Below are positions 29,046 to 53,336 of a DNA stretch of 64,000 nucleotides, piece after piece. This DNA is from Mesorhizobium sangaii. Lineage in GTDB: Bacteria > Pseudomonadota > Alphaproteobacteria > Rhizobiales > Rhizobiaceae. The position numbers and the translations under genes are program-made. Within the stretch, counting starts at the first letter, position 1; every line of letters begins with the position of its first letter. The notes under the pieces are model-generated. The model ran no database searches. It saw only the letters and a program-made list of their open reading frames with translations, and had not been told where the DNA came from. The stretch covers positions 186,001 to 250,000 of the forward strand of contig NZ_JACHEF010000006.1 of assembly GCF_014207355.1 (NCBI RefSeq). Direction: 5' to 3'.

Positions 29046-30791
29046 TCAGTCCGCCACGGCGAGACCGGCTTTCTTCAACGAGCCAATGAAGAACTCGACA
29101 TCTTGCGAACGGGTCAACCGCTTCGAAACCGCTTCGCGCAAGTTCTGCACCAAATCCGGTTGATTGTTATCCAGCCACTCGCGCTCGCGATCGGCCTCGA
29201 TTTTGTAACCGCCTTCAGCAAGAACGGCAGCCGCAACCATATGGTAGAGCGGGTTTGATTGAACTGGCGACTTCTTGATCCACATAGCTGCCTGAGGGTA
29301 GTCGCGGTTAAAATAGGAACAAAGGGCCAGGTCCACCTCGTAGTAGCCCAAGGCACTCGGATTCTTTTGACGGGCTTCCTCAACCAGCGCACAGCCATCA
29401 TGCCATTCACCGGCGAACGCCAAGCGCTGGCCATATTCACCCATCAACTCGGTGTCGTTCGGGTTCATGGCCAAGGCCTGCTTGCCTACTCTCAAGGAAG
29501 CGTCGATTTCTTTGTTGAAATAGAGCGCAAGCATTTCCGCTTGGCGGCCTCGGATATTGAGCGGGTCGAGTGCTACCGCCTGCCTCGCCGCGGCGAGGGC
29601 GCGCTCGAGGGCGGCGGCGGAGAACGCGCGATCGACGGGAAACTGAAATCGATGGTCATCGATGTAGACCAGGGAAAGAAGAGCCCAGGCGGTAGCGTAT
29701 TTCGGGAAGCGGGCCACGGCCTTTTCAAGACAGGAACGTACTGATGTACGGGTCTCTGGTTTGAGATCTACCCGATACGCATAGAAGGAAAGCGTACACG
29801 AATAGGCGGCCCAATCGTCGGGCGGGTTGTCAAGGTGAACATTGGCATCCGCCTGGAAGATCACGCCATAGGTTTGCGCCAAGCTCGTCGACACGTTGCG
29901 CGCGACGTCGGCTTGAGCTTTGACAACGTCAGCGACTTTTATGCGGCCGTCATAGCTGTCGGCCCATAGAACCGAACCGTTGACCATGTTGATCAACCTG
30001 ACCCGAAGCCGAAAAGAATCGACCGATAGGCCAACGCTGCCAGCAAGCACAAATCGTGGCATCGAGATCGAGGCGTCGCCCGCTTTGGGTGCCGACTCCA
30101 TGACCACAATGTCCTTGAACTTCGAAAGCTGGCTGACAATTTCCTGCTTTAATCCATTCGCGATGGCCGTCGCGGCGCCGGTGCCGGTCAGGTCGTCAAA
30201 CGGCTCGACAAGCACATGGGGCGTTTCTGGCACGATGGGCCTGACCGACTTCCATGACCACGCCAGCACCAACGTTGCTGCCACGAGAAGGGCTACAGTT
30301 CCCCCCAGCGCCAGCGGCAGCGGCATGCGCCGTGCCGGAAAGGCGGTTGGCTTTTCCGAAACAAGCGGCAACGGGGGCGCTTCTAGCGCAGATGGCGAAC
30401 GGAGCGAGAAGACAGGAACATAGCCCCCCTTTGGAATCGTGATCAGGATTGGGTCGGTTTGTCCCGAGGTCAGATAGTATCGCTCGAGCGCACGCCTGAG
30501 GTGGCCAGCCTCGATGCGAACGATCGGATCCGTCTGCGGGTCGAACGCCTCTCCGCGACCAAACACTTCGACTGCGATGGAATAGGCCTTGATGCGGTCG
30601 CCTCGTCCCGACAATGCTTCTTCCACCACATGGCTGAGGAAGCGCCGCTCGCGGCTGGTGGCATCGAAGTCAGCACTGTCGAGGATAAGTCCAAGTTGAG
30701 CGCGGCAAACCTCAAGGGGCAACTCATGCTCCCCGAGTGCGGACGTACCCCCTTGGATCACCGTCTCCTCACTTGATTCTTGCAGCCGCAA
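29046..30791 (-). CDS. Winged-helix/TPR membrane-linked regulator
   Basis: This protein of up to 581 residues has an N-terminal DNA-binding-like module (FLSHVVEEALSGRGDRIKAY, FGRGEAFDPQTDPIVRIEAG, LRRALERYY, ITIPKGGYVPVF), a single membrane segment near residues 165-185, and a C-terminal region with TPR-like repeats. Rhizobial relatives are often labelled adenylate cyclase but lack a visible cyclase domain, as here. The start is TTG at 30791 or GTG at 30761, the latter close to GAGGAG. It is divergent from the small gene at 30886, with site A between them, so it could regulate the region. Confidence 0.7.
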   Translation of the reverse strand: MRLQESSEETVIQGGTSALGEHELPLEVCRAQLGLILDSADFDATSRERRFLSHVVEEALSGRGDRIKAYSIAVEVFGRGEAFDPQTDPIVRIEAGHLRRALERYYLTSGQTDPILITIPKGGYVPVFSLRSPSALEAPPLPLVSEKPTAFPARRMPLPLALGGTVALLVAATLVLAWSWKSVRPIVPETPHVLVEPFDDLTGTGAATAIANGLKQEIVSQLSKFKDIVVMESAPKAGDASISMPRFVLAGSVGLSVDSFRLRVRLINMVNGSVLWADSYDGRIKVADVVKAQADVARNVSTSLAQTYGVIFQADANVHLDNPPDDWAAYSCTLSFYAYRVDLKPETRTSVRSCLEKAVARFPKYATAWALLSLVYIDDHRFQFPVDRAFSAAALERALAAARQAVALDPLNIRGRQAEMLALYFNKEIDASLRVGKQALAMNPNDTELMGEYGQRLAFAGEWHDGCALVEEARQKNPSALGYYEVDLALCSYFNRDYPQAAMWIKKSPVQSNPLYHMVAAAVLAEGGYKIEADREREWLDNNQPDLVQNLREAVSKRLTRSQDVEFFIGSLKKAGLAVAD

Positions 30792-30800
30792 CTTCTAGTG

Positions 30801-30835
30801 GCGCGGTTACATGCTTATCCACGTAACTTACCTCC
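30801..30835 (+). promoter_or_regulatory. Dyad motif site A
   Basis: GTTAC (30806-30810), N12, GTAAC (30823-30827) and TTACCTCC form an inverted repeat between the winged-helix/TPR gene and the small gene at 30886. Sequence identity with site B extends to GCGCG-TTACATGCTTA upstream. A possible -10 box, TACGAT, follows about 22 bases later. Confidence 0.6.
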
Positions 30836-30885
30836 CACCGCCCTCTATTTGCAATACGATTGCGTCAGGTCGATGAACTGGTGTC

Positions 30886-31324: not shown

Positions 31325-32125
31325 ATGAAGACTTTCTATCGGAAACAAGCCCTGGGTTGTGCCATTCTTTCCGTCCTTTGGCTTGCCCATCCCGCTCGGG
31401 CCGCGGATGCGGTCTCACCCTTGACGCCGGACCTGAAGCCAGTGGTGACCGAACAGGGCTGGACGTTCTCCGTTGCGCCGTACTTTTGGGCAGCCGGGCT
31501 CTCGGGTGAGGTGTCGCAGTTCGGTCTTCCCACCGTCGACGTCGATGCGAGTTTCGGCGACATCCTGAAGAATCTCGACTTTGCGGCGATGGCCACAGCC
31601 GAGGCACGCTACGATCGCTACAGCATCTTCGGCGACCTGATGTATGTAAAACTGTCGACCGGAAGCGGCACGCCTCGAGGCATCGTCGCCACCAATGTCG
31701 ATGTCGGTTCTGAAACGTTTTCAGGGTTGGTCGGCGCGGGCTATTCGATCGTCCAGAGTGACGCCGGACGCCTCGATCTCGTCGCCGCCATGAGGGTTTG
31801 GTCCGTAAACACCGACCTCGACTTCCACGGCGGTATCCTCGACGGCGTGTCCCGCAGCGACGGGGCAACCTGGGTCGATGGGCTTGCCGGTGTTCGCGCG
31901 ACCTATTCGCTCACCTCCGAAGTATATCTGACGGGCTGGGGCATGGTGGGTGCAGGCGGCGCCAATGTCGACTGGGATGTCGCCGCCGCATTGGGATACC
32001 GCTTCAACGAACGCTTTTCGGCGGTCGCAGGCTACCGCGCGCTCGGCGTCAACTACCGCAACGACGGCTTCGTCTTCGATGTCGTCCAGCAGGGACCAAT
32101 CTTGGGACTGGTCATGCGTTTCTAG
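31325..32125 (+). CDS. Outer-membrane beta-barrel protein
   Basis: This 266-residue protein has a signal peptide (ending AHPARAADA). Its mature part is of alternating beta-strand character, with aromatic girdles typical of small OmpW/OprF-like barrels (FSVAPYFWAAGLSGEVSQFG, GYRALGVNYRNDGFVFDV) and a C-terminal Phe (LVMRF), as seen in outer-membrane proteins recognised by the BAM complex. It may let sulfated substrates or products cross the outer membrane, given the sulfatase downstream; this is inference. Confidence 0.78.
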   Translation: MKTFYRKQALGCAILSVLWLAHPARAADAVSPLTPDLKPVVTEQGWTFSVAPYFWAAGLSGEVSQFGLPTVDVDASFGDILKNLDFAAMATAEARYDRYSIFGDLMYVKLSTGSGTPRGIVATNVDVGSETFSGLVGAGYSIVQSDAGRLDLVAAMRVWSVNTDLDFHGGILDGVSRSDGATWVDGLAGVRATYSLTSEVYLTGWGMVGAGGANVDWDVAAALGYRFNERFSAVAGYRALGVNYRNDGFVFDVVQQGPILGLVMRF

Positions 32126-32837: not shown

Positions 32838-34508
32838 ATGAGTGACAAGGAAAAACAACCCAGCTCGACCGATCATGAAAACCAGGCGACATTGTCGATG
32901 CGACGCCGGGATCTTCTGTTGAGCGGCGTCTCGCTGTTTGCAGCGGCAACCCTGGCGCCAGTTGTGACAGCCGGCCCGGCGCGAGCGCAAGACACCGCAA
33001 ATCGCCCAAACATCCTGGTCATTTTCGCTGATGACGTGGGTGTTTGGAACCTCAGCGCCTATCATCGTGGCATGATGGGCGGTTCCACACCGAACATCGA
33101 CCGACTCGCCAAGGAAGGCGCTCTTTTCACGGACTACTACTCGCAGCAATCCTGCACCGCCGGACGAGCTGCCTTCATTACCGGCCAGAGCCCCTTACGC
33201 GTCGGACTGTTGAAAGTAGGCTTGCCCGGGTCGACGCAAGGATTGCAGGACAAGGACCCGACCATCGCTGAACTGCTCAAGGCGCAGGGCTATGCGACAG
33301 CGCAGATCGGCAAGAACCATCTGGGCGACCGCAACGAGTTCCTGCCGACCCGGCACGGCTTCGACGAATTCTACGGCAACCTTTACCATCTCAACTCCGA
33401 GGAGGAGCCCGAAGACCCGGACTATCCGAAGAGCCCCGAGTTCCATGCGAAGTTCGGGCCGCGCGGCGTCCTCGATGTGAAAGCCACAGATGTCGACGAC
33501 CCGACAGAGGATCCGCGCTTCGGCCGTGTCGGGAAACAGGTCATCAAGGACACTGGCCCTCTCACGCGCAAGCGGATGGAGACCGCCGAAGAAGAATTGC
33601 TGGCCAAATCGCTGGACGTCATGGATCGATCGGTAGCCGCCAAGAAGCCGTTCTTCCTTTGGCACAACACAACGCGCATGCATGTCTGGACCCGCCTGTC
33701 ACCCAAATGGCAGGACAAGACCGGCTACGGCCTCTACGCCGACGGCATAGCCGAGCTTGACGACGTGGTCGGCCGGCTGCTGAAGAAGGTCGACGAACTC
33801 GGGATCGCAGACAACACCATCGTCGTCTTCTCCAGCGACAATGGCGCCGAGAGCTTCTCCTGGCCCGACGGCGGAACGCAACCATTCCGCGGCGAGAAGG
33901 GCACGACCTGGGAGGGCGGATTCCGGGCGCCCTGCATGGCCCGCTGGCCGGGTGTCATTCAACCCGGCACGATCATCAACACAACAATGGCGCACTAGGA
34001 TTGGCTGCCAACCTTGCTCGCCGCAGCCGGCGCGCCGGATATCAAGGAGAAACTCCTCAAGGGCGAGAAGGTCGGGGACAAGACCTTCAAGACCCATCTC
34101 GACGGCTACAACTTCATCCCCTTCTTCAAGGGCGAAACCAAGGAGGCACCTCGCCGCGAATTCTTTTATTTTGATGACCAGGCCAACATCAATGCGATGC
34201 GTTACGACGATTGGAAGATCAGCTTCGCCTGGATCGAGGGCAATCTGTTCACCGGCAAACGCGTCACGCAGAATGTCCCGATCGTAACCAATTTGAGAGA
34301 GGACCCGTTCGAGCGCTACTTCGACGAGGCGGGTACCTATGAGCGCTGGTGGGCCGACAAACTGTGGACGCTGGTTCCCGCCCAGGCGATCGTCGGGCAG
34401 TTCCTCGCCAGCTTCAAGGACTACCCGCCAAGCCAGAAGTCCGGGTCCTTTGATGTCGGCCAGTTCCTCGAGGCACTTCAGAGCGGGGCGAGTGGCGGCG
34501 GGAATTGA
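32838..34508 (+). pseudogene. Tat-exported sulfatase interrupted by one amber codon
   Basis: The frame encodes a type I sulfatase of about 556 residues. It has a twin-arginine signal (MRRRDLLLSGVSLF, residues 21-34), a metal site (ILVIFADDVG), the cysteine that would become formylglycine (C106 in SCTAGRAAFITG), and GKNHLGD further on. Codon 387 (33996-33998) is TAG in TTMAH*DWLPTLLAAAG, where relatives usually have Glu, Gln or Asn. After it the same frame continues for 169 codons with sulfatase character to 34508, so a single substitution (from CAG or GAG, for example) explains the break. A truncated 386-residue product would lack the C-terminal subdomain. SD GGAGG precedes the ATG. Confidence 0.85.
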
Positions 34509-34708: not shown

Positions 34709-34751
34709 GTTGCCAACAGGGCATTGCATCAAGGACGACGCGATAAGAGCC

Positions 34752-35723
34752 ATGACAAAACTTGCCGACACCGAACGAAAGCTCGCCGGCTCGACGCCGG
34801 TCAGGCCACCCCACGACCGGATGGTTTGGATTCCCGGCGGCACGTTTCTCATGGGTTCCGACAAGCACTATCCGGAGGAGGCCCCGGCGCACCGGGTGAC
34901 GGTGGGCGGGTTCTGGATGGACATTTGCACCGTCACCAACCGCGACTTCGCGCGCTTCGTCGAGGAAACCGGATATGTGACGGCGGCCGAGCGGCCGGCG
35001 AACCCGGACGACTACCCCGGCTGGCAGCCGGACATGCTTGCGCCTTCGTCGGTGGTGTTTATCAAGGCCAAGCAACAGGTCGATCTCCGCGATCACTACA
35101 ATTGGTGGGTCTATGTGCGCGGCGCCAATTGGCGTCGTCCACGCGGCCCGGCGAGTTCGATCAAGAAGCTTGCCGACCACCCGGTCGTCCATGTGGCCTA
35201 CGAGGATGCGGAGGCCTACGCAAAATGGGCCGGCAAGGAATTGCCGACCGAGGCAGAATGGGAGTTCGCGGCGCGTGGCGGGCTAGAGGGTGCCGAGTTC
35301 CCCTGGGGCGATGAGTTGACGCCGGACGGCATGCATATGGCCAATACCTGGCAGGGCGAGTTTCCCTACCGCAACACGCTCGATGATGGGTTCGAGTACA
35401 CAGCGCCGGTCGGGTCGTTCCCCGCCAACGGCTACGGCCTCTACGACATGGCCGGCAATGTCTGGCAATGGACGACCGACTGGTACCAGGAGCATGGCCA
35501 GATCGACAGCCCGTGCTGCACGGTGGACAACCCTCGGGGCGCCAAGCGGGAGGACAGTCTCGATCCGAGACAGCCGGCGATCAGGATCCCGCGCAAGGTG
35601 ATGAAGGGTGGGTCGCATCTTTGCGCCCCCAATTATTGCCGGCGCTACCGCCCGGCCGCGCGGATGGCTCAGCCGGTCGACACCTCGACCAGCCATCTGG
35701 GTTTTCACTGCATCGTGCACTGA
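34752..35723 (+). CDS. Formylglycine-generating enzyme (SUMF1/FGE family), copy 1
   Basis: This 323-residue protein of the FGE-sulfatase family oxidises the active-site cysteine of sulfatases to formylglycine in the cytoplasm, before Tat export. The N terminus reads WIPGGTFLMGSDKHYPEEAP; middle phrases are LPTEAEWEFAARGG and GLYDMAGNVWQWT. The paired catalytic copper-binding cysteines are at C291 and C296 (HLCAPNYCRRYRPAAR), so it should be an active aerobic FGE. The ATG at 34752 precedes the homologous region. It sits behind the amber-interrupted sulfatase and can also serve the second sulfatase at 45922. Confidence 0.92.
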   Translation: MTKLADTERKLAGSTPVRPPHDRMVWIPGGTFLMGSDKHYPEEAPAHRVTVGGFWMDICTVTNRDFARFVEETGYVTAAERPANPDDYPGWQPDMLAPSSVVFIKAKQQVDLRDHYNWWVYVRGANWRRPRGPASSIKKLADHPVVHVAYEDAEAYAKWAGKELPTEAEWEFAARGGLEGAEFPWGDELTPDGMHMANTWQGEFPYRNTLDDGFEYTAPVGSFPANGYGLYDMAGNVWQWTTDWYQEHGQIDSPCCTVDNPRGAKREDSLDPRQPAIRIPRKVMKGGSHLCAPNYCRRYRPAARMAQPVDTSTSHLGFHCIVH

Positions 35724-35768
35724 GAACCGACGCTGCTAGCACGCATGAGCGATCGACGAGGTCAACAA

Positions 35769-36179
35769 ATGGACGCGACACGAAAGTTATTCCTGGTCGT
35801 CATTGCAGCAATCGAAGCCGCGACAGGCCTCGGTCTGCTTTTGCAACCTTCCGTTCCGTTTGTTCTCCTACTTGGATTGGAAAGCGCCACGGTTGAAGCA
35901 ATTTTTGTCGGCCGCATCGCGGGCGCGGCGCTGCTTGCCATAGGTGTCGCAAGCTGGATCGCGAGGAACGACAAGGTAAGCCATGCGCTATTAGGCCTGC
36001 TTGTTGGCATTCTGATTTACAACACAGCCGTATCAATTCTCCTCGTCTACGCGGCCGCAGTCCTAAAGATGACCGGCGTCTTGCTTTGGCCCACTGTTGC
36101 ACTTCACGCACTGATGGCCGTCTGGGGTGGTCTGCTTCTACGCGGCATTTCGACCGAAACTCCCCTTGGCGACCGATGA
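35769..36179 (+). CDS. Small four-helix membrane protein
   Basis: This 136-residue protein is almost entirely hydrophobic, with about four membrane segments (FLVVIAAIEAATGLGLLL, IAGAALLAIGVASWIA, LLVGILIYNTAVSILLVY, VALHALMAVWGGLLLRG). It follows the FGE gene by 45 bases in the same direction. The ATG at 35769 is chosen for the GAGG 8 bases upstream; an ATG at 35745 is possible. No family assigned. Confidence 0.65.
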   Translation: MDATRKLFLVVIAAIEAATGLGLLLQPSVPFVLLLGLESATVEAIFVGRIAGAALLAIGVASWIARNDKVSHALLGLLVGILIYNTAVSILLVYAAAVLKMTGVLLWPTVALHALMAVWGGLLLRGISTETPLGDR

Positions 36180-36605
36180 CAACCGAGGGGGCGCATTGTG
36201 GCACGTTGCATCTGACTGCCGCGGGCAAGCTGCTCAACGATGGCGCGGCGCTCGTCTAAAGGGCCAGCAAGGTTCAAATGCGGAGCCTCTGCTCCGAAGC
36301 CAATCCCACGCGCAGGTCCGCAAGATGCAGCGCTCGCCTGGCACATTGACGAGTTGGCGCCCGGCAACGACAGCCGTTCAGTAGCGCGATTACATGCTTA
36401 CCCCACGTAACTTACATTCCAGCGCCAGCTCTTTGGTGCCTACTATCCGCGAAGGAATGCAGGAAGCGCTCATCGGGTAATCACGCCCTAAAGGCGCTGC
36501 TCGAGTCATTTGAGAGCATTTCCATTGTCGGCTGCCGGAGAGCCGACGGTGCCGCGTGGAAGCTGTCGTGCGAGACGCAGCCGTAGCGGGAATCGAGGAC
36601 TGCGT
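36180..36605. other. Intergenic region holding motif site B
   Basis: About 425 bases without a convincing gene. The only clear structure is the dyad motif at 36384-36420, followed about 25 bases later by a TACTAT box, which fits a promoter for the PPIase operon starting at 36606. Confidence 0.5.
36384..36420 (+). promoter_or_regulatory. Dyad motif site B
   Basis: ATTAC (36389-36393), N13, GTAAC (36407-36411) and TTACATTCC make the second strong copy of the regional motif, nearly identical to site A over about 40 bases. It lies about 190 bases before the PPIase gene. TACTAT at about 36441 could be a -10 box. Confidence 0.6.
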
Positions 36606-37481
36606 ATGACGTTGCTCAGGGAGCCTCTGCTGCATTTTGCCGTCGTCGGCGCGATCCTGTTTGGCGGCTATTCCTGGCTGAACGACAGGCATGTCGAAAC
36701 AACGGCCGCGGAGCCGGTCCGTATCGGCGAAGGCGACGTGCGCTGGCTCAAGCAGACCTGGTCGAGCCAATGGCTGCGCGAGCCAACCGCCGATGAACTC
36801 AAGGGTCTTGTCGACGATCTCCTCAATGAGAAAGTGATGGCGCGCGAAGCGCAGGAGATGGGCCTTGAGAAGGACGACACAATCATCCGCCGCCGCCTGG
36901 CGCAAAAGCTCAGATTCATTGTCGAGGATACGGCCCAGCTTGCCGAGCCAACCGAAGTGGAACTGCGGCAGTTCTATGCCGCCAACCCTGCACATTTCGA
37001 GACGCCCGGAAAACTCTCGTTTCGGCAGGTCTACTTCAACCCGGAGCATCGCAAGGATGCCGCGGCGGACGCGACCGCCGCGCTGGGAGCGCTGTCAGCG
37101 AATGTCGAGGACGACTCAATCGAGGGCGACCGGCTGCTGTTCGGCGACAGCTTTGCCGACACCGACGAACAGGCGCTGTCTGGAATGTTCGGCGCCGATT
37201 TTGCGCGCGCGGTGTTTGCACTTGGACCGGGCGGGTGGCGCGGTCCGGTGAAATCCGGCTATGGCTTTCATCTGGTGCTCGTCACGCAGCGCACGGCGAC
37301 CGCGCCAAAGCCCTTCGAGACCGTGAAGGATGCCGTGCTGGCTGAGTGGCGCTCTGCAAAGCAGACCGAACTGAGCAAAGAGTACCTGGTCGAGCTGCGC
37401 AACAAGTACGGCGTCGAGATTGATGACAGTACGAAAGCAGCGCTGGGGCCAGGGCCTGCAACGAACGTGGCCGCACAATGA
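36606..37481 (+). CDS. Parvulin-type peptidyl-prolyl isomerase, membrane anchored
   Basis: This 291-residue PpiC/SurA-like protein has one N-terminal membrane segment (LLHFAVVGAILFGGYSWL), a helical chaperone arm (LVDDLLNEKVMAREAQEMGL, RRRLAQKLRFIVED) and a C-terminal rotamase domain (LSFRQVYFNPEH, GGWRGPVKSGYGFHLVLVTQ). It should help secreted proteins fold in the periplasm. It opens a four-gene operon whose next gene overlaps it by four bases (ATGA). Clients may be the exported sulfatase-like or DUF3604 proteins; this is inference. Confidence 0.87.
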   Translation: MTLLREPLLHFAVVGAILFGGYSWLNDRHVETTAAEPVRIGEGDVRWLKQTWSSQWLREPTADELKGLVDDLLNEKVMAREAQEMGLEKDDTIIRRRLAQKLRFIVEDTAQLAEPTEVELRQFYAANPAHFETPGKLSFRQVYFNPEHRKDAAADATAALGALSANVEDDSIEGDRLLFGDSFADTDEQALSGMFGADFARAVFALGPGGWRGPVKSGYGFHLVLVTQRTATAPKPFETVKDAVLAEWRSAKQTELSKEYLVELRNKYGVEIDDSTKAALGPGPATNVAAQ

Positions 37482-38524
37482 GACGGCTGGCCAAGTGGTC
37501 TAAGCTCGTGCGGGGAGCCCGCTCCGCGTTGGAGTGCGTTCGACTGGTCCTGCTGACAGCGGTCATTGCTGCGCTGTTCTGCGAAGTTGCCTACTCCCAC
37601 GAGGTGCGTCCCGCCTATCTCAGCCTGAAGGAGGAGGCGCCGAACGAGTTCAGCGTTCTGTTCAAAACGCCGATGCAGGGCAATGCGCGACTGGCGCTGT
37701 CGGCACTCTTTTCCGGCAAGATCGAGACGGTGACGCCGATCATCTCGCATCCGACGGGCGATGCCATGGTGCAGACTTGGCGCATGCGCACGCTGGAACC
37801 GCTCGCAGGCCAGAGCGTCGTGATCGACGGGTTGCAGAACAGTATGACCGACGCGCTGGTCCACGTGGTGTTCGCGAACGGCAACAGCTGGACGGCGCGA
37901 CTTACCCCCAGCGAGCCGTCGGCAGTCATTCCGGCGTCGCAGAGCGCCTGGGCGGTGTTCGTCACCTACGTCCGTCACGGCATCGAGCATATCGCCTTCG
38001 GCTTCGACCATCTGCTGTTCGTCGCCGGGCTGATGCTGGTCGTGCGCGACTGGCGCAAGCTGGTGAAAGCGATCACCGCCTTTACGGCTGCTCATTCGAT
38101 CACCTTGAGCTGCGCCACACTCGGATGGCTGACGCTGCCGTCGCGGCCGGTGGAGGCGATGATCGCCATCAGCATCGTCATGGTCGCCGCCGAGGTTGTG
38201 CGGATGGAGCGCGGGCAAGTCAGCCTGGCCATTGTGAGGCCGTGGATGGTGGCCTTCATTTTCGGCCTGCTGCACGGCTTCGGCTTTGCCGGTGCACTGG
38301 TCGAGCTCGGCCTGCCGCAGGGCGACATTCCGCTGGCGCTGCTGGCCTTCAATGTCGGCGTCGAGCTCGGGCAACTGGCCTTCATCGCCGCCTTGCTGGC
38401 CGCGGTCTATTCGGTGATGCGCTTCGTCATGATCCCGCGGCAGGCGATCGTCGCGTCGGCCTATGCCATCGGGATCATCGCGGCATTCTGGAGCGTCCAG
38501 AGGCTGGACGCGATGTTCTTGTAG
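37478..38524 (+). CDS. HupE/UreJ-family membrane protein with periplasmic N-terminal domain
   Basis: This 348-residue protein has a signal/membrane start, a soluble beta-rich domain of about 110 residues (SHEVRPAYLSLKEEAPNEFS), and six or so membrane helices with HupE/UreJ_2 hallmarks (HGIEHIAFGFDHLLFVAGL, FTAAHSITLSCATLGWL, FGLLHGFGFAGALVELG). HupE/UreJ proteins move or sense nickel or other metals; the His-rich helix fits a metal path. It could supply a metal to the DUF3604 protein encoded downstream. Confidence 0.88.
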   Translation: MRRLAKWSKLVRGARSALECVRLVLLTAVIAALFCEVAYSHEVRPAYLSLKEEAPNEFSVLFKTPMQGNARLALSALFSGKIETVTPIISHPTGDAMVQTWRMRTLEPLAGQSVVIDGLQNSMTDALVHVVFANGNSWTARLTPSEPSAVIPASQSAWAVFVTYVRHGIEHIAFGFDHLLFVAGLMLVVRDWRKLVKAITAFTAAHSITLSCATLGWLTLPSRPVEAMIAISIVMVAAEVVRMERGQVSLAIVRPWMVAFIFGLLHGFGFAGALVELGLPQGDIPLALLAFNVGVELGQLAFIAALLAAVYSVMRFVMIPRQAIVASAYAIGIIAAFWSVQRLDAMFL

Positions 38525-38533
38525 GAGGAGCAA

Positions 38534-39319
38534 ATGGGAACCGCCGCAAGACTGCCGCGCCGACCTTGCCTGAGGGGCCGGAGACTTGCACGCGCTGCCG
38601 CGGTGGCGCTCGCCGCGTCGTTGATGGCTGCTGCTTCGGTCTCCGAAGGACGCACTTGCGGCTATGATAGTCCGCAAACGGTTTCGCAGGGCTTCCTGAA
38701 TTGGCTCTATCCCGATTCACTCTACGTCGTCGGCGCGATATCGAGGGAGGTGGCGGCGGGACGGCTGCCGCTGGCGAACTTCGATCAGACCGGACCAGAT
38801 CTGTTCGGACACAGATTTAAGCTGACAGCGGCGGCGCTGGAGCAATTCGGCGACATGCTCCGGGTGGCATCGCCGGGGCCCTTCCAGGCTTCGGTTTCTC
38901 TGGTCGTCGTTGAGCCGATGCTGTGGACGCGCTTCGATCAGGGTCCTGATGGCCTGCGCACAACGGTCCATGTCTCGGGGGCGCAGCCCGGAGATCTGGT
39001 CATTGTCGCCGGCGAAGCCGTGATAGCCGAAGTCGCGGCGCGGCGGTTGACCTTCGGCCAGGCTGTCGAGCGCGGCGTGGTGCGGCTCTATGGGCCGGCG
39101 CCGCAGATCGCCCAATTCCTGCTCAGCTATTCGCATGTCGGCGCAAACGACAGTGCCGTCGAAATATCACAGAAAGCGGTCTTCTCGCTGGTAGGCGCGG
39201 GGGCCGGCTCACCCGATTTCGCTTCAAAGCAATCGCATCCGGTTGGCATCACGCCCGCCGAACTCGGATGCACACCCGACCATACCGAGATTTCATTCCA
39301 TGAGGGAGAGAGACAATGA
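38534..39319 (+). CDS. Secreted protein of unknown function in the DUF3604 operon
   Basis: This 261-residue protein has a basic N terminus and a signal peptide (ARAAAVALAASLMAAASVSE). Its mature domain is all soluble, with cysteines near each end (GRTCGYDSPQTV, ELGCTPDHTEISF). No known motif was found. It lies 9 bases after the HupE/UreJ-like gene and overlaps the DUF3604 gene by four bases, so it belongs to this operon and probably works in the periplasm with its neighbours. Confidence 0.7.
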   Translation: MGTAARLPRRPCLRGRRLARAAAVALAASLMAAASVSEGRTCGYDSPQTVSQGFLNWLYPDSLYVVGAISREVAAGRLPLANFDQTGPDLFGHRFKLTAAALEQFGDMLRVASPGPFQASVSLVVVEPMLWTRFDQGPDGLRTTVHVSGAQPGDLVIVAGEAVIAEVAARRLTFGQAVERGVVRLYGPAPQIAQFLLSYSHVGANDSAVEISQKAVFSLVGAGAGSPDFASKQSHPVGITPAELGCTPDHTEISFHEGERQ

Positions 39320-41250
39320 TCCGGAAACCGTTGGCAATCACAAGTCTCGTGTTACTTGCCGTCTGCGCAAGCGCCGTGGCGTGGGCACAGGATGCCGGCA
39401 CCTATACCGTCGAGGAAGCGGGGCAAGCTATCAAGGCTCGACCCTACTCGCCTTATGCCGGTCGCGATTTCCCGACGCGGCCGCTGTTTGGCGACACGCA
39501 TTTGCACACGGCCCTGTCCTTCGACGCCGGGGCGGCCGGTGCCAGGCTCGGACCGCGCGAGGCCTACAAATTTGCGAAGGGCGAGGAGGTCATTTCCTCG
39601 ACTGGACAGCCGGCCAGGCTGTCGCGTCCGCTCGACTTCCTGGTCGTCGCGGATCACTCCGACAATATGGGATGGTTCACCGACTTCATGGCCGGAAAGC
39701 CGGAGATCCTGCAGAACGCACAGGCCCGCGAGTGGTATGACATGATACAGTCGGGGCACGCCGGGGAAGCGGCGTGGTCAATCGTTATGACCTTTTCGCA
39801 AGGCAAATTTCCGCCCGAGATCATCTACCAGCCGGGCAATCCCGCCTATCGGTCGGTGTGGCAGAGCATCATCTCGGCAGCCGAGGAAGCCAACGATCCG
39901 GGGCGCTTCACCGCTTTCATCGGCTTTGAATGGACGTCGCTGTCCAAGGGCAACAATCTCCACCGCAATGTCATTTTCCGCGATGGTGCCGAAAAGGCCG
40001 GTCTCATCGAGCCGTACACGACGCAGCCGCCCGTCGGCAGCAACAACCCGCGCGACCTGTGGAAATGGCTGCGGAACTATGAGGACAAGACCGGCGGCGA
40101 TGTGCTTGCCATCGCCCACAATGGCAATCTGAGCAATGGCGAGATGTTCCCGATCATCGAGCCGGTCACCGGTAAGGAGATCGATCGCGAATACGCCGAG
40201 CAGCGCGCCAACTGGGAGGTGCTTTATGAGACCACCCAGATGAAGGGCGACGGTGAGAGCCACCCCTTTCTTTCTCCCAATGACGAATTCGCCAATTTCG
40301 AGAAATGGGACAAGGGCAATCTTGACCTCAGCGTCAAGAAGACACCGGACATGCTGGAGTTCGAGTATACGCGCTCGGCGCTCAAGAACGGGCTGAAGCT
40401 GGAAGCCAAGCTGGGGGTCAATCCCTACAAGTTCGGCCTGGTCGGCAGCACGGATTCGCACACGGGCCTCTCCACTGCCGACGACGACAACTTTTTCGGC
40501 AAGATATCGACCGGCGAGCCGAGCCCGGAACGCTGGTCACACCCGTTCATGGCAAACCCCAAGCTCGGCCTAAAGATCCTGGGCTGGGAGACGACTGCAT
40601 CGGGCTATGCCGCAGTGTGGGCGCAGGAGAACACACGCGCATCGATCTTCGACGCCATGAAACGGCGCGAGACGTATGCCACGACCGGGCCGCGGATGGC
40701 AGTTCGGTTCTTCGGCGGTTTCGATTTCGTCGAAGCCGACGCCAATACCCGCAGCCCGGCTATCGCCGGTTACACCAAGGGGGTGCCGATGGGCGGCGAC
40801 CTCAAGCAGGCGCCCGCGGGCAAGGTGCCGACCTTCCTGGTTGCGGCATTGAAGGATCCGATCGGCGCCAATCTCGACCGCTACCAGATCGTCAAAGGTT
40901 GGCTGGACGCCGCCGGCGAGGTGCATGAACAGGTCTACGATGTTGCCTGGTCCGGCGACCGCAAGCCGGGCACCGACGGCAAGCTGCCGCCGGTCGGCAA
41001 CACGGTCGACGTAGCCAATGCCACATGGACCAACACGATCGGAGCGCCAGAGCTTAGCGCCGTATGGAAGGACCCCGATTTCGATCCGTCCCAGCGGGCT
41101 TTCTACTATGGCCGCGTCATTGAGATTCCGACGCCGCGCTGGCCCGCCTATGACGCGAAATATTTTGGCATCAAGATGTCGCCGGATGTGACCATGACGA
41201 CGCAGGAACGAGCCTACACGTCGCCGATCTGGTACACGCCAGCCGGCTAG
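39316..41250 (+). CDS. DUF3604 family protein (PHP-like metal-dependent hydrolase fold)
   Basis: This 644-residue protein has a signal peptide (LVLLAVCASAVAWA). Metal-site-like motifs of the DUF3604/PHP type are spread along it: FGDTHLHTALSFD (about residue 58), FLVVADHSDNMG, LAIAHNGNLSNG and LVGSTDSHTGLS. The family is often found near sulfatases and polysaccharide or organosulfur degradation genes, but the reaction is unproven. It is the last gene of the PPIase-HupE operon. Full length and motif-intact, so likely an active periplasmic metallo-hydrolase. Confidence 0.9.
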   Translation: MIRKPLAITSLVLLAVCASAVAWAQDAGTYTVEEAGQAIKARPYSPYAGRDFPTRPLFGDTHLHTALSFDAGAAGARLGPREAYKFAKGEEVISSTGQPARLSRPLDFLVVADHSDNMGWFTDFMAGKPEILQNAQAREWYDMIQSGHAGEAAWSIVMTFSQGKFPPEIIYQPGNPAYRSVWQSIISAAEEANDPGRFTAFIGFEWTSLSKGNNLHRNVIFRDGAEKAGLIEPYTTQPPVGSNNPRDLWKWLRNYEDKTGGDVLAIAHNGNLSNGEMFPIIEPVTGKEIDREYAEQRANWEVLYETTQMKGDGESHPFLSPNDEFANFEKWDKGNLDLSVKKTPDMLEFEYTRSALKNGLKLEAKLGVNPYKFGLVGSTDSHTGLSTADDDNFFGKISTGEPSPERWSHPFMANPKLGLKILGWETTASGYAAVWAQENTRASIFDAMKRRETYATTGPRMAVRFFGGFDFVEADANTRSPAIAGYTKGVPMGGDLKQAPAGKVPTFLVAALKDPIGANLDRYQIVKGWLDAAGEVHEQVYDVAWSGDRKPGTDGKLPPVGNTVDVANATWTNTIGAPELSAVWKDPDFDPSQRAFYYGRVIEIPTPRWPAYDAKYFGIKMSPDVTMTTQERAYTSPIWYTPAG

Positions 41251-42807: not shown

Positions 42808-43248
42808 ATGAGGTTCCTGTCAGGCATAGCGACCGCCATGGTCGCAACTTTTGCACTTGCGAGCACTGTTCCAGTTGACGCCGCCCCAATATTCGTACCC
42901 AAAGCACAAGGCGCGCAGCTAGATGTCATCCGGGTTCGGGATGGCTGGTACAGGGGCTATCGCGGCTATCGCCACCACACTTGGCACAACGACTTCTGGG
43001 CCCCGGGTGGCGCATTTGTCGCCGGAGCGCTGCTTGGCAGCGTGATCGCCAACAGCAACGGCTACTACGGCGGGTATTACCGAGGCGGCGATTATTACGG
43101 GGATCCGTACTACGGCGATCCGTATTACGTCGATCCGTATTACGGCGATCCATATTACCACGACCGATACTATGGCGATGGGTATCACTCAGACAGATAC
43201 TATCGGGGGTGTTCGCCCAGGGAAGCCGATTCCGGTAATTGTTACTAG
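42808..43248 (+). CDS. Secreted Tyr/Gly/Asp repeat protein
   Basis: This predicted 146-residue protein has a signal peptide (MRFLSGIATAMVATFALAST...). A basic/aromatic region (WYRGYRGYRHHTWHNDFW), a short hydrophobic Gly/Ala segment and a run of YYGDP-type pentads (residues about 95-125) follow, with two cysteines at the end. The pentads are encoded by 15-base tandem repeats. The layout recalls rhizobial glycine-zipper/BA14K-like surface peptides, but no firm family was recognised. Confidence 0.6.
   Translation: MRFLSGIATAMVATFALASTVPVDAAPIFVPKAQGAQLDVIRVRDGWYRGYRGYRHHTWHNDFWAPGGAFVAGALLGSVIANSNGYYGGYYRGGDYYGDPYYGDPYYVDPYYGDPYYHDRYYGDGYHSDRYYRGCSPREADSGNCY
43097..43171. repeat. 15-bp tandem repeats encoding YYGDP pentads
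   Basis: About five head-to-tail units based on GATCCGTATTACGGC encode the YYGDP/YYVDP pentads of the Tyr-rich secreted protein. Differences between units are mostly synonymous or conservative. The array could change copy number by slippage. Confidence 0.75.
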
Positions 43249-43548
43249 CGATCGGTGCAGGGTGCCGCCCTTTGGCGGTTTCTATGTGATCGACACAGTT
43301 CAATATTAGACCGCCGCTGCGCGCCGTTTGAACGGCCTCGTAGTCAAAAAAGTTACCCCGCCCTCCACGTAACTTACGTTCCGCTGCCGACTCCATCCGG
43401 TAGTCTCGGGACAACACGAACCGATAAACGGGATGGAACGCCGGCTGGCAGGCAAAAGCGGTTTATCGGTGGTGTGCCGGTTGCGTGGCGGATCGGGAGT
43501 CCTCTCGTTGCCGCTGCGGTTCATCTCAGGCCCACGGGGAGGGAGACA
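43249..43548. other. Intergenic region holding motif site C
   Basis: This 300-base region has no gene. Its main structure is the perfect dyad at 43350-43382, about 170 bases before the binding-protein gene. TAGTCT about 22 bases downstream of the dyad could be a -10 box. Confidence 0.5.
43350..43382 (+). promoter_or_regulatory. Dyad motif site C (perfect inverted repeat)
   Basis: AAGTTAC (43350-43356), N12 and GTAACTT (43369-43375) form a perfect 7-bp inverted repeat, followed by ACGTTCCGCTGCC. This is the most symmetrical copy of the regional motif and has the same spacing as site A. It precedes the orphan binding-protein operon. Confidence 0.65.
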
Positions 43549-45597: not shown

Positions 45598-45921
45598 TTG
45601 GCTCTGGGCGAATTCGAACGTTTGGGTTCGTAGCGTGCGGGCCACCGTTTTCCCTTCGATGATCGGGAGGCGAATGTCGCGGCGCCAGCTTTCCGGCCAC
45701 GCCAAGGCGCTCGATGATCCGCATTCAAATGTGCGGCGTGGTCCCCCGCGCCGGCGCTTTCGCGTGACCCCGTCACGATCTCCTTGCGCCAAATGGATAG
45801 CTGCACAATTATATTAGATGTAGCTTATAATCAAATTGCGCGAGATCAATGCCGACGCACGGCTGGTCGGACTATGCCGGGTTTTGAACGCATGATCTGG
45901 TTTAGCAGGCAGGGGCAAAAC
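45598..45921. other. Intergenic region with the sulfatase promoter
   Basis: About 320 bases without a gene. An AT-rich core near 45800-45840 contains a likely sigma-70-type promoter (separate entry) and an inverted repeat, ATTATA-N12-TATAAT. The rest shows nothing convincing. Confidence 0.5.
45803..45831 (+). promoter_or_regulatory. Predicted promoter of the second sulfatase gene
   Basis: TGCACA (45803-45808) and TATAAT (45826-45831) are spaced 17 bases apart, about 90 bases before the sulfatase ATG. The -10 is a consensus match and the -35 matches four of six positions. No copy of the regional dyad motif is present here. Confidence 0.5.
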
Positions 45922-47427
45922 ATGAGCAACGATCGAGATTTCCCGGCTGAAGCCGGCATCAGCAACAAAATCACGCGGCGGGACGCATTGATGGCCGGCA
46001 CGGCGGTTGCGGCGTCGCGACTGGCTACACCGGTTGGCCTTTCGGGCGTGCTCGCCGGCCTTGCCGGGGTTCAGCCTGCGGCCGCCCAGCCGGCGCTCCC
46101 CAATATCGTCTACGTCGTCGCTGACGACATGGGCTGGGGGGATGCCGGCTTCAACGGTTCCGATATCAAGACGCCGAACCTCGACAAGCTCGCCGAGGGC
46201 GGCGCCCGCTTCGACCAGTTCTACGCCCTGCCTATGTGCACGCCGACGCGCGCGGCACTAATGACCGGCCGCTATCCATTGCGCTATGGCCTGCAGACGG
46301 GCGTCATTCCGGCAGCGGGCACCTACGGGCTCCCGGTCGACGAGTACCTCTTGCCGCAGGTTCTGAAAGACGCCGGCTACAAGACGGCCATGGTCGGCAA
46401 ATGGCATCTCGGCCATGCCAAGCCAGAGTTCTGGCCGCGGCAGCGCGGGTTCGACTATTTCTACGGCGCTCTGGTCGGAGAGATCGACCATTTCAAGCAT
46501 TCCTCCCATGGCGTGAAGGACTGGTATCGCAACAACAAGCCGCTCAGCGAAACCGGCTTCGACAACACGCTGTTCGGCAACGAGGCCGTGCGGGTTGTCG
46601 AGCGCCACGAGGGCAAGAGCCCGCTATTCCTCTACCTGGCCTTCACCGCGCCGCACACGCCCTTCCAGGCGCCGCAGGAGTATCTCGACCGGCTCAAGGG
46701 TATCGCGGACGAGAACCGACGCAAATATGCAGCGATGATCTCGGTGATGGACGACGGCGTTGGCAAGGTGGTTGCGGCGCTCGAAAAGAAGGGCATGCGC
46801 GACAACACCATCGTCGTCTTCCACAGCGACAATGGTGGCGTGAAAGACTCGCTGTTTGCCGGCGACTCGAAAGTCGGGGGCGCGCTGCCCGCCGACAACG
46901 GACCTTATCGTGACGGCAAGGGCACACTCTACGAGGGCGGCACCAGGGTCGCCGCCTTCGCCAATTGGCCGGGCAAGATCAAGCCGGGCGTGGTCGATGG
47001 CATGGTCCACGTTACGGACATGTATCCCACGCTTGCCGCAGTCGCCGAAGCCAAGCTGGAGAAGAACAAGCCACTGGACGGCATGAATGTCTGGAACGCC
47101 CTGAGCGAGGGAAAGCCGTCTCCCCGCGCCGAGGTGGTCTACAACGTCGATCCTCTGGCCGGCGCCGTTCGCAAAGGCGACTGGAAGCTTGTGTGGAAGG
47201 CCTCACTGCCGCCGAAGGCGGAGCTTTTCAACCTCGCCGACGACAAATCCGAAACTCACGATCTCGCGGCGGCGAACCCGGACAGGATGAAGGAGTTGCA
47301 AGGGCGTATCGTCGAACTGGCTGGCGAGATGGCACCGCCGCAACTGCTTATGGAAGCAGTGCGGCTGACCTTCTTCGCGCCGCCGGTGACGGCCGATCCG
47401 TCGACGCTGCTCAGCTTGGGGGATTGA
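45922..47427 (+). CDS. Tat-exported type I sulfatase (arylsulfatase-like)
   Basis: This predicted 501-residue sulfatase has a twin-arginine signal (ITRRDALMAGTAVAASRLA), metal ligands in NIVYVVADDMGWGD, and a cysteine to be converted to formylglycine (C106 in PMCTPTRAALMTGRYP). Further catalytic phrases are MVGKWHLGH, APHTPFQAP, VFHSDNGGV and GKGTLYEGGTRVAAFANWPG. It hydrolyses sulfate esters in the periplasm. It is intact, unlike the first sulfatase in the window. The FGE gene follows after 6 bases, an obvious activator pair. Confidence 0.94.
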   Translation: MSNDRDFPAEAGISNKITRRDALMAGTAVAASRLATPVGLSGVLAGLAGVQPAAAQPALPNIVYVVADDMGWGDAGFNGSDIKTPNLDKLAEGGARFDQFYALPMCTPTRAALMTGRYPLRYGLQTGVIPAAGTYGLPVDEYLLPQVLKDAGYKTAMVGKWHLGHAKPEFWPRQRGFDYFYGALVGEIDHFKHSSHGVKDWYRNNKPLSETGFDNTLFGNEAVRVVERHEGKSPLFLYLAFTAPHTPFQAPQEYLDRLKGIADENRRKYAAMISVMDDGVGKVVAALEKKGMRDNTIVVFHSDNGGVKDSLFAGDSKVGGALPADNGPYRDGKGTLYEGGTRVAAFANWPGKIKPGVVDGMVHVTDMYPTLAAVAEAKLEKNKPLDGMNVWNALSEGKPSPRAEVVYNVDPLAGAVRKGDWKLVWKASLPPKAELFNLADDKSETHDLAAANPDRMKELQGRIVELAGEMAPPQLLMEAVRLTFFAPPVTADPSTLLSLGD

Positions 47428-47433
47428 CGGCGG

Positions 47434-48378
47434 ATGGGCAGGCCATCCGAGGCACCGGCGCGCGAGGACATGGTGTGGATCCCCGGGGGCGAATTCCTAA
47501 TGGGTTCGGACCATCACTATCCGGAAGAGGCGCCGGCGCACCGCGTTGTCGTCGGCGGCTTCTGGATGGATCGCACGACCGTCACCAATGGTGAATTCAG
47601 GCACTTTGTGGAGGTTAGTGGCTACGTCACGCTGGCTGAGCGTCCGGCAAATGCCGCGGACTATCCCGGAGCCAGTGTCGATTCATTGGCGCCGGCTTCA
47701 GCCTTGTTCGTCAAGCCTCCGCGCGGCATCGATCGCAGCAATCACTACAATTGGTGGGCTTATGTGCGCGGCACAAATTGGCGACATCCGCGCGGGCCGG
47801 CCAGTAGCCTCAAGGGTCTCGAAACCCATCCTGTCGTCCATATCGCGTACGAGGACGCGCAAGCCTACGCGGACTGGGCGGGAAAGGCGCTGCCGACCGA
47901 GGCCGAATGGGAGTTTGCCGCTCGCGGCGGGCTGCCCCGTGCTGAATTCGTGTGGGGCGACGAGCTCATACCAGGCGGCAGCCACATGGCCAACACTTGG
48001 CAGGGCGAGTTCCCGTACCGCAACAACTGCGACGACGGCTACGAATGGACCGCTCCCGTTGGCTCATTTCCGGCAAACGGCTACGGGCTCTACGATATGG
48101 CCGGCAACGTCTGGCAGTGGACCGTCGACTGGTACCAGCAACACGGCCAGATCGAGAGCCCTTGTTGCACCATGGCCAACCCCCGCGGCGGCGAACGCGA
48201 GGCGAGCTACGATCCGGCAACGCCAGACATCAAGATTCCGCGCAAGGTCACCAAGGGCGGGTCTTTCCTGTGCGCTCCCAACTACTGCCGCCGTTACCGG
48301 CCGGCCGCGCGCATGGCGCAAGCGATCGACACGTCCACTTGCCACCTCGGTTTCCGTTGCATCAAGCACTCAATGTGA
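47434..48378 (+). CDS. Formylglycine-generating enzyme (SUMF1/FGE family), copy 2
   Basis: This 314-residue FGE closely resembles copy 1 (WIPGGEFLMGSDHHYPEEAP, LPTEAEWEFAARGG, GLYDMAGNVWQWTVDWY). Catalytic cysteines C280 and C285 lie in FLCAPNYCRRYRPAARMAQ. It activates the sulfatase encoded just upstream. The start is ATG at 47434, with GGCGG the only SD-like run, but coupling to the sulfatase stop is likely. The two FGE genes are clear paralogues, implying duplication of a sulfatase-FGE module. Confidence 0.93.
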   Translation: MGRPSEAPAREDMVWIPGGEFLMGSDHHYPEEAPAHRVVVGGFWMDRTTVTNGEFRHFVEVSGYVTLAERPANAADYPGASVDSLAPASALFVKPPRGIDRSNHYNWWAYVRGTNWRHPRGPASSLKGLETHPVVHIAYEDAQAYADWAGKALPTEAEWEFAARGGLPRAEFVWGDELIPGGSHMANTWQGEFPYRNNCDDGYEWTAPVGSFPANGYGLYDMAGNVWQWTVDWYQQHGQIESPCCTMANPRGGEREASYDPATPDIKIPRKVTKGGSFLCAPNYCRRYRPAARMAQAIDTSTCHLGFRCIKHSM

Positions 48379-51939: not shown

Positions 51940-53310
51940 ATGGAGATCAAGTTTCCGCGTTGGCCTGTTGGCGCTGTGGCCATACTGACGGTCTTGATTT
52001 GCTCGGGTCCGGCCTCTTTCGCGATTGCTCAGGATCAAGCCGCTGCTACAGCTGGCGCAGCGGCTACCCAGGCGCCCGAACCGCTCGACGAGGATGAACT
52101 CGAAGTCCTGGTAGCGCGAATAGCGCTCTATCCCGACGAACTCGTCGCGGTGATCTCCGAAGCGTCGCTTTATCCATTGCAGATCGTCGAGGCGAGCCGG
52201 TTTTTGGATCAGGTCGCCAAGAAGCCAGGCCCGAAACCGAAGGAAAGCTGGGACGGCAGCGTCATTTCACTGCTCAACTATCCCGCCATCGTCAAAATGA
52301 TGAGCGACGATCTGGAGTGGACCCAGGCGCTTGGCGACGCACTGACGTATCAGCAAAAAGACGTTCTGGTCGCCATACAGCAGTTGCGCGACACGGCTGT
52401 CGCCAAAGGCGTGATCAAGTCCGATGACAAGGTCAAGGTTGTCAAGGAGAACGACAATGTCGTCATCCGGTCCGCGAGCGCAGACACGATCTATGTTCCA
52501 CGGTACGAGCCACAAATGCTCTATGCCACCGACTATCCGGTCGCTCCGATCTCCTATTATCCAGACCCCTACCCAAGTTATTACTATCCCACCGCGCCTT
52601 ATTTCGCGGCCTTCGTGACTGGCGCCGTCTGGGCAGCGGCAGTGGATTGGAATAACTGGGGCGTGTCGGGAGGCCGCTGGAACGGCAACGATATCAATAT
52701 CGACTGCAACAATTGCTTCAACAACATAAACGGCAAGGTCAATTTCAACGACGTCGACTGGAAAAACGTCGACCGTTCGCAATTAAATTTCGACAAGAAC
52801 CAATTCGCCAACATCGACAAAACGAAGATCAGCAACCGGGTCAAGTCCGACGATCGCAACAATATGCGCAACAAGGCGTCCGATCTGAAAAGGGACCGAG
52901 CGAGTACGCTTGCCGGAAAGTCCGGCAAGGTGAAGGACGTCCGCCAACGCGAAATTAGAGAGGGTTTGAAAAACCGGCCCCCGGCGTCGAGGCCGGATGT
53001 CAAAAAGCCGACCAACAACAACCCGATTTCCGCGGCACGAAAGAATGACCGTTCTGCGGCCAAGGCGTCGGGGAATATCAATCGTGCGGTCGGCAAGCCC
53101 AGGCCCGCAGCGAGAGTGGACAACAGGCCGAGGAACCCTTCGGGTCTTGGCAACGTCAGCTCCGGAAAACGTCAGCAGATTGCCTCCAACCGCGGTGCGA
53201 GGAGCATGGGAGGCGGAATTCGCAGCGGCGGCGGCGGCAACAAAATGATCAGGCACGGCGGTGGCAGGCAGGGCGGTGGCGGGCGCGGCGGTGGCGGGCG
53301 CAGGCGTTAA
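51940..53310 (+). CDS. DUF3300 domain protein, secreted, with basic Gly-rich tail
   Basis: This 456-residue protein has a signal peptide (to about residue 30, FAIAQDQ). The DUF3300 domain covers about residues 45-230 (ELEVLVARIALYPDELVAV, SASADTIYVPRYEPQMLY, YPDPYPSYYYPTAPYFAA). An Asn/Asp-rich stretch and a Lys/Arg-rich then Gly/Arg-rich C terminus follow (GGGRGGGGRRR). The tail could bind RNA, DNA or acidic polymers. DUF3300 proteins usually sit in the envelope next to DUF2950 proteins, as here. It is the first gene after motif site D. Confidence 0.88.
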   Translation: MEIKFPRWPVGAVAILTVLICSGPASFAIAQDQAAATAGAAATQAPEPLDEDELEVLVARIALYPDELVAVISEASLYPLQIVEASRFLDQVAKKPGPKPKESWDGSVISLLNYPAIVKMMSDDLEWTQALGDALTYQQKDVLVAIQQLRDTAVAKGVIKSDDKVKVVKENDNVVIRSASADTIYVPRYEPQMLYATDYPVAPISYYPDPYPSYYYPTAPYFAAFVTGAVWAAAVDWNNWGVSGGRWNGNDINIDCNNCFNNINGKVNFNDVDWKNVDRSQLNFDKNQFANIDKTKISNRVKSDDRNNMRNKASDLKRDRASTLAGKSGKVKDVRQREIREGLKNRPPASRPDVKKPTNNNPISAARKNDRSAAKASGNINRAVGKPRPAARVDNRPRNPSGLGNVSSGKRQQIASNRGARSMGGGIRSGGGGNKMIRHGGGRQGGGGRGGGGRRR

Positions 53311-53336
53311 TAAATTTGGCGAGAGGAGAACCGACC

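Follow-up and report, generated by a model that had tools for sequence, protein, structure and literature searches.

Gene Organization of the Locus

The window analysed here, a 64-kb stretch of the 7.2-Mb genome of Mesorhizobium sangaii (contig NZ_JACHEF010000006.1, positions 186,001 to 250,000), contains a four-gene operon coding for a peptidylprolyl isomerase (PPIase), a HupE/UreJ-type permease (HupE), a secreted protein and a large secreted DUF3604 protein. The initial annotation had read this operon as a maturation set, in which metal supply, a folding helper and a dedicated partner serve one periplasmic hydrolase. The PPIase, HupE and DUF3604 genes were found to be a conserved module in loci whose record titles name seven phyla, and the gene between HupE and DUF3604 is an optional, not a fixed, member of the set. 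The operon comprises the following features, with positions counted from the first base of the window.

36606..37481, plus strand: PpiC/parvulin-type PPIase (Rotamase_2) whose N-terminal membrane anchor is conserved (Pfam, 1.9e-20)
37478..38524, plus strand: HupE_UreJ_2 permease with a periplasmic N-terminal domain (Pfam, 3.2e-49)
37598..37600, plus strand: codon of His41, predicted to become the first residue of mature HupE (91% of 64 rows have His here, right after a signal-peptide-like stretch)
38534..39319, plus strand: secreted protein with a predicted SCP2-like domain at about 38804-39145 (no Pfam family; AlphaFold2 model)
39316..41250, plus strand: DUF3604 protein, a secreted predicted hydrolase with a PHP-like fold at about 39472-40692 and an immunoglobulin (Ig)-like beta-sandwich at about 40693-41247 (Pfam, 1.8e-245; model)

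The list of open reading frames (ORFs) bore out the four-gene layout, the positions and the tight packing described in the initial annotation. The PPIase and HupE genes overlap by ATGA, nine bases separate HupE from the 38534 ORF, and the latter overlaps DUF3604, again by ATGA. The start of the PPIase gene was placed at ATG 36606, with GAGGA just 5' of it; the longest frame opens at TTG 36510. Pfam names matched three of the four proteins as had been proposed: Rotamase_2 (74.3 bits, cut-off 27), HupE_UreJ_2 (PF13795, 167 bits, cut-off 24.5, residues 164-314) and DUF3604 (PF12228, 816 bits, cut-off 20.4, model positions 3-591 of 591). The extra periplasmic part ascribed to HupE corresponds to about 120 N-terminal residues located after a signal-like stretch and ahead of the Pfam match. 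The 38534-39319 product was family-less, as stated before, with nothing in Pfam below E 0.15.

Conservation of the PPIase-HupE-DUF3604 Module

The survey of DUF3604 neighbourhoods suggested in the initial annotation was performed on the gene neighbourhoods of retrieved relatives (numbered loci, L). The 80 named DUF3604 loci were the best 80 of at least 570 places and thus those most like the DUF3604 of the window; their genes were mechanical ORFs, and the presence of partners was judged by profiles built for this analysis. Both PPIase and HupE were detected in 56 of the 80 loci, in every case on the same strand as DUF3604, with the pair following it in 33 loci and preceding it in 23. When loci with at least 3 kb on both sides of DUF3604 were considered, the pair recurred in 46 out of 56. 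A 4-base PPIase/HupE overlap was present in 30 of the 56 pair-bearing loci (mechanical starts). The titles of the pair-bearing loci named Pseudomonadota, Verrucomicrobiota, Planctomycetota, Nitrospirota, Acidobacteriota, Gemmatimonadota and Desulfobacterota, these labels coming from depositor records, many of them metagenome-assembled.

The closest named DUF3604 locus was that of Mesorhizobium escarrei (86%). A second DUF3604 gene in the genome of M. sangaii has its own PPIase and HupE (identities of 63, 38 and 43%), while the three genes of a genome of the same genus (G028, locus L033) are 92, 92 and 94% identical to those of the window, which suggests that the trio is inherited as a block. 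One pair stood beside two DUF3604 genes in L053, L088, L114 and L120, as well as on plasmids.

A class sample of 385 genomes was examined using the 119 best HupE rows among the matches listed and 66 DUF3604 rows of at least 480 positions, shorter pieces being left out. Of the 66 long DUF3604 rows, which come from 33 genomes, 39 had a listed HupE_UreJ_2 match no more than 8 kb away, and these 39 were spread over 27 genomes. The six remaining genomes include G401, with PPIase and HupE at one contig end and DUF3604 pieces at both ends, and also G234, G330 and G409, which carry a distant trio described below. Among the matches listed, 32 of 87 long-frame HupE_UreJ_2 rows were near DUF3604, compared with 1 of 32 short ones.

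The PPIase of the trio type was not seen at 52 of 55 long HupE genes located away from long DUF3604 rows. Weak among these 52 are L209, L223 and L225, which are short, and L215, which begins inside HupE and has a DUF3604-like neighbour (38 bits). At the other three loci (L212, L217 and L220), PPIase was present and the HupE scored as trio HupE. A DUF4198-like gene was found in 24 of the 52 PPIase-less loci, with a Pfam DUF4198 match for one of them.

The same set recurred around a distant DUF3604 subfamily of about 760 amino acids (70 bits to PF12228 for L195), in which a divergent PPIase and HupE of its own adjoined DUF3604 in ten loci (L189-L192, L195, L231, L233, L234, L236 and L237). PPIase accompanied the divergent HupE in 13 of 16 loci, L235 being cut.

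The distances of PPIase and HupE across 54 loci were correlated with r of 0.61 (0 of 2000 permutations as high), whereas those of DUF3604, a set picked by similarity and thereby narrowed in range, tracked HupE with r of 0.17 (35 of 2000 permutations as high) and PPIase with r of 0.13 (16 of 2000). The PPIase-HupE pair therefore appears as a tight unit; the idea of tight co-evolution of DUF3604 with the pair was dropped, since the distance correlation did not show it.

DUF3604 as a Predicted PHP-Fold Metallohydrolase

For residue analysis, 70 of the 80 DUF3604 proteins were kept and 48 of these were aligned with the window protein. Residues H62/H64, D113-H114, E205, H216, H268 and D380/H382 were invariant in the 49 proteins, in agreement with the PHP-type metal motifs noticed in the initial annotation. 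These HxH, DH, E, H and DxH residues are presumably the PHP metal motifs, an assignment made from sequence.

The AlphaFold2 model of DUF3604 had a predicted local distance difference test (pLDDT) score of 91. A Foldseek search of PDB with this model returned 3e38 at 7.3e-7, and VIA-align gave Z 16.3 for 2anu (3.6 Å over 215 residues) and Z 16.2 for 3e38 (3.5 Å over 228). DUF3604 resembles these PHP phosphoesterases, TM0559 (2anu) and BVU_3505 (3e38), in the predicted fold over about residues 53-459 and in the HxH, DH, E, H and DxH residues. Unlike them, it is longer, begins with a signal-like stretch and ends with an Ig-like domain, and the identity amounts to 15-16%; sequence searches of PDB with DUF3604 found no relative. 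Taken together, the model predicts a PHP-fold metallohydrolase. Structure matches of the C-terminal part were discarded because they reached only Z 5-6 and concerned common Ig-like arrangements.

Of the 80 DUF3604 N-terminal stretches, seven showed a twin-arginine-like motif and seven a lipobox-like motif. Since the protein starts with a signal-like stretch and both motifs are present in few relatives, its export by the Sec route is likely.

In the main texts of openly licensed PubMed Central articles (figures and supplements excluded), the function of DUF3604 was not described and PF12228 was not mentioned, although a description elsewhere is possible. A results table of a transposon-mutant study lists CT_425 of Chlamydia trachomatis, of 622 amino acids, as a DUF3604 protein (PMC11925237).

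The PPIase and Its Membrane Anchor

The anchor of the PPIase carries a conserved REPLLHF sequence, with E6 in 60, P7 in 64, H10 in 59, F11 in 64 and the downstream F19 in 64 of 65 rows. Two positions were taken to be those of the catalytic-type histidines of parvulins. H222 was invariant in the aligned rows, and the presumed first position is occupied by Gln in 50 of 65 rows, the window protein included, and by His in 15, so that the pair is not complete in the PPIase of the window. The protein shares the Rotamase_2 domain with PpiC/PrsA-type parvulin chaperones, but differs from them in the REPLLHF anchor and in the first His position being mostly Gln. Both features would be expected of a protein that holds its client and has a partner in the membrane, perhaps HupE.

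The HupE Permease and Its Relation to Anglerases

H171, D177, H178, H206, H266 and E296 of HupE were invariant in 64 rows, and so were H171-x5-D177-H178 and H266-G267, which we take to be the motifs named HX5DH and HG in the HupE/UreJ_2 family. With His41 directly following the signal-peptide-like stretch, mature HupE is predicted to begin with a histidine. A two-histidine copper brace was rejected, as no His besides His41 reached 60% in the periplasmic part.

In 2025, the name anglerase was given to HupE/UreJ-2 proteins in which the N-terminal His of a periplasmic domain mediates the binding of Cu (73.6 nM) or Ni (220 nM), and these proteins were proposed to be metal-capturing importers (PMC12537917). 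The main text of that paper, which leaves aside its neighbourhood figure, contains none of the terms 'isomerase', 'PPIase' and 'DUF3604'. Similarly, UreJ never occurred together with 'peptidylprolyl isomerase' in openly licensed PubMed Central main texts, nor did PF13795 appear in them, a description elsewhere being possible. The trio HupE and Ang-1-HupE/UreJ-2 (9GCE, PMC12537917) are alike in the HupE/UreJ_2 membrane part and in the His placed straight after the signal peptide. Unlike Ang-1, the trio HupE has a shorter periplasmic part, belongs to a clade of its own and is accompanied by PPIase and DUF3604 instead of DUF4198.

Sequence searches of PDB with HupE found no relative. The 9GCE structure was not found up to E 10 by a 42-row profile of the trio HupE periplasmic domain, nor up to E 1 by the window protein alone, whereas the control profile, built from the stand-alone HupE group without PPIase, found it at 2.1e-31. 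By this profile match, the stand-alone long-HupE group is the anglerase family. A profile-profile alignment of trio and stand-alone HupE covered the membrane part (probability 100) and little ahead of it. Since 9GCE was missed and the alignment was confined mostly to the membrane part, the trio HupE appears to be a branch related to the anglerases, yet apart from them, and the two may still share a periplasmic fold. In a tree of the HupE membrane part, all 36 trio rows fell on one side of a branch with a support of 99 in the SH-like approximate likelihood ratio test (82 rows, quick method). The rows were taken from every second DUF3604 locus with HupE above 300 bits and every second stand-alone HupE, together with four short ones.

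Two more small HupE_UreJ genes (6608-7318 and 7231-7920) were noticed between HupE and DUF3604 in L087, the first having relatives in seven DUF3604 loci, L087 included.

The N-terminal histidine and the metal-type membrane residues support a metal role of HupE, as does the binding of Cu and Ni by Ang-1 through the same His (PMC12537917). Such a role would also be compatible with metal scavenging, in which the periplasmic substrate of DUF3604 is an organic compound that binds metal, HupE captures the metal freed by hydrolysis with its histidine and imports it, and the PPIase only folds envelope proteins. The capture and import proposed for the anglerases (PMC12537917) and the additional HupE_UreJ genes of L087 and its relatives speak for scavenging. 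Against it, Rfam gave no match to any RNA family in the window at gathering scores, so no metal-responsive RNA was detected, and the PPIase is not seen at 52 of the 55 other long-HupE loci. Because of this last observation, maturation of an enzyme fits better and metal scavenging seems unlikely.

The Third Protein and Its Predicted SCP2-Like Fold

A profile search of PDB with the 38534-39319 protein ranked two sterol carrier protein 2 (SCP2) entries first, at E 0.09, while the Pfam SCP2 family did not match it up to E 1. The AlphaFold2 model, made from 8 sequences, had a mean pLDDT of 69, with values of 74-95 per ten-residue block in residues 91-200. SCP2 proteins and SCP2-like alkylsulfatase domains dominated the Foldseek list, headed by 4axh, the C-terminal domain of the alkylsulfatase Pisa1 (4.6e-4). 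The best VIA-align match was 3bdq (Z 9.8, 2.7 Å over 104 residues), and Z of at least 8 was reached by 2 of 546 chains, a value that unrelated models can approach according to the tool's own note; the SCP2 call therefore draws its weight from profile and fold lists pointing the same way. An SCP2-like fold is thus predicted for about residues 91-204, similar to that of the SCP2-like domains of the sec-alkylsulfatase Pisa1, of SdsA1 and of SCP2 itself. Unlike these, the 38534-39319 product is a separate secreted protein with a conserved Cys-Gly start, a helical N-terminal part and no Pfam match.

The SCP2-like protein was present in seven of the 80 DUF3604 loci, all seven with the PPIase-HupE pair, and the trio occurred without it in L003, L033 and L037 from the same genome and genus. 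It was also detected on plasmids, in 19 records of Sinorhizobium and one of Rhizobium. The protein is rare, since among the 385 genomes of the class sample it was found in the genome of M. sangaii only. Two SCP2-like copies of G051 stand behind a trio-type HupE at the very ends of contigs. The match in G046 was weak (2.8e-4, 26%), and the 14 kb retrieved around it matched neither HupE nor PPIase nor DUF3604. The role of dedicated partner assigned to this protein in the initial annotation was too strong a reading, since the protein is missing from most loci, and structure prediction suggests a ligand-binding protein rather than a maturation factor.

Conjugative plasmids of both S. medicae and S. 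meliloti carry a DUF3604-DUF3604-PPIase-HupE-SCP2-like operon (L200 and L202), with the SCP2-like gene directly after HupE.

Operator-Like Motif and Surrounding Genes

The region around the operon contains further features.

36403..36420, plus strand: operator-like motif CCACGTAACTTACATTCC, 203 bases upstream of the PPIase start (one of three in the 7.2-Mb genome)
30819..30836, plus strand: further site of this motif, 28 bases away from where the TPR gene on the minus strand begins (genome motif search)
43365..43382, plus strand: the same motif as a full dyad ACGTAA-C-TTACGT, upstream of the gene of an OpuAC-type substrate-binding protein (OpuAC, 2e-55)
29046..30791, minus strand: TPR protein and candidate regulator, given that the motif lies next to its gene (Pfam matches to TPR only)
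32838-34508 and 34710-35723: first sulfatase and formylglycine-generating enzyme (FGE; Pfam)
45784-47427 and 47434-48378: second sulfatase and FGE (Pfam)
35745..36179, plus strand: small hydrophobic protein recurring near the module in the genus, outside the core (relatives in L030, L031, L032, L033 and, with 54 bits, L049)

The motif CCACGTAACTTACNTNCC occurred three times in the genome, also when two mismatches were allowed, and all three sites (30819, 36403 and 43365) lie in the window; a control with the reversed pattern gave none in the genome. Five matches were counted in the window, with the 43365 dyad scored on both strands and a poorer copy at 28846, against 0.30 expected, and none of 100 shuffles had as many. 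Upstream of the PPIase, the motif was present in three of 18 other loci (L030, L033 and L052, one mismatch). Relatives of the TPR protein were found in four of the 80 DUF3604 loci and, beside the motif, in L033. The motif looks like the mark of a local regulon of the genus that takes in the four-gene operon, the OpuAC-type binding protein and either the TPR gene or the gene divergent from it.

The initial annotation had placed the operon between two sulfatase-FGE modules under a shared dyad motif and proposed a common, possibly sulfated or phosphorylated, substrate. The flanking modules and the motif are real, but the motif does not lie directly upstream of either sulfatase. Relatives of the sulfatases were found in 12 of the 80 DUF3604 loci and among 6 of 83 neighbour proteins scanned (83 of 312 taken), which does not establish the common substrate. 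A catabolic operon, whose proteins process and take up one amphiphilic or esterified compound while HupE carries a non-metal product, could account for these sulfatase relatives, the SCP2-like partner and the OpuAC-type protein under the same motif. Since HupE retains metal-type membrane residues and the sulfatases and the SCP2-like protein are minority partners, the probability of such an operon seems low.

The first sulfatase gene has an in-frame TAG at codon 387 (33996-33998), with the signature CTAGR from residue 106; there are intact relatives, and the TAG probably reflects a recent pseudogene or a sequence error. The 31325-32125 protein, without a Pfam family, has relatives in 15 of the 80 DUF3604 loci and a 91% identical stretch over 120 residues just upstream of the second DUF3604 copy (L003, 9371-9730). 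DUF3300 and DUF2950 genes stand in a row at 51940-54293, both with relatives near the module in L031 and L105, and DUF3300 also in L077. The 15-base tandem repeats at 43093-43182 belong to a small ORF with a high content of Tyr, Gly and Asp.

Proposed Role of the Module

The four genes look like one working unit in this bacterium. A cell-envelope maturation set for a PHP-type metallohydrolase would be the most economical explanation, and we consider it quite possible, if somewhat short of probable. DUF3604, judging by its start, would be exported unfolded via Sec. The membrane-anchored parvulin-like PPIase would hold and fold it at the membrane, and HupE, in contact with its partners, would gather a transition metal with its metal-chelating N-terminal histidine and supply the PHP site. 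The secreted SCP2-like protein may have joined the set in rhizobia and in a small number of burkholderial and bosea-type relatives, where it would most likely bind an amphiphilic compound that the hydrolase acts on or releases. The operon of M. sangaii shares its rare operator-like motif with the TPR gene and the OpuAC-type binding-protein gene. The proposal of the initial annotation is thus favoured for PPIase, HupE and DUF3604 as a dedicated set, given the 46 of 56 well-flanked loci, the separate HupE clade and the 52 of 55 HupE loci without PPIase, and was too strong for the fourth protein as a dedicated partner, found in seven of 80 loci.

Several observations weigh against the maturation set. 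The pair was missing from ten of the 56 well-flanked loci (L066, L095, L096, L100, L106, L107, L111, L118, L123 and L125; in L118 PPIase is present and the HupE match is weak) and from L034, and it lies on the strand opposite to DUF3604 in L037 and L192. In the class sample, 27 of the 66 long DUF3604 rows had no listed HupE match within 8 kb, and no PPIase was in view at the divergent HupE loci L229 and L230. Most trio PPIases (50 of 65 rows) are devoid of one of the two parvulin His positions. Import of the anglerase type (PMC12537917) would not by itself load a periplasmic enzyme.

The weak tracking of HupE and PPIase by DUF3604 distances belongs here as well, and together with the loci where DUF3604 stands alone and the modules on conjugative plasmids it could indicate that DUF3604 and the pair are linked but do not work together, for instance because they travel on the same plasmids. 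Such mere linkage is improbable in view of the common strand in all 56 pair-bearing loci, their titles from seven phyla and the recurrence in the distant subfamily.

Beyond this operon, the maturation set may, more tentatively, represent a widespread undescribed envelope machine, in which an anglerase-like permease clade and a membrane parvulin form a metal-loading and folding station for extracytoplasmic PHP-fold hydrolases, with an SCP2-like substrate presenter recruited in rhizobia. The trio HupE adds a branch of its own next to the recently described anglerases, and a family-less protein gains a predicted fold. The literature searched assigns no function to the widespread DUF3604 family, and its tie to a single permease clade and a single kind of membrane PPIase offers a testable idea of how DUF3604 is made. 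If true, this would show how enzymes folding outside the cytoplasm obtain their metal.

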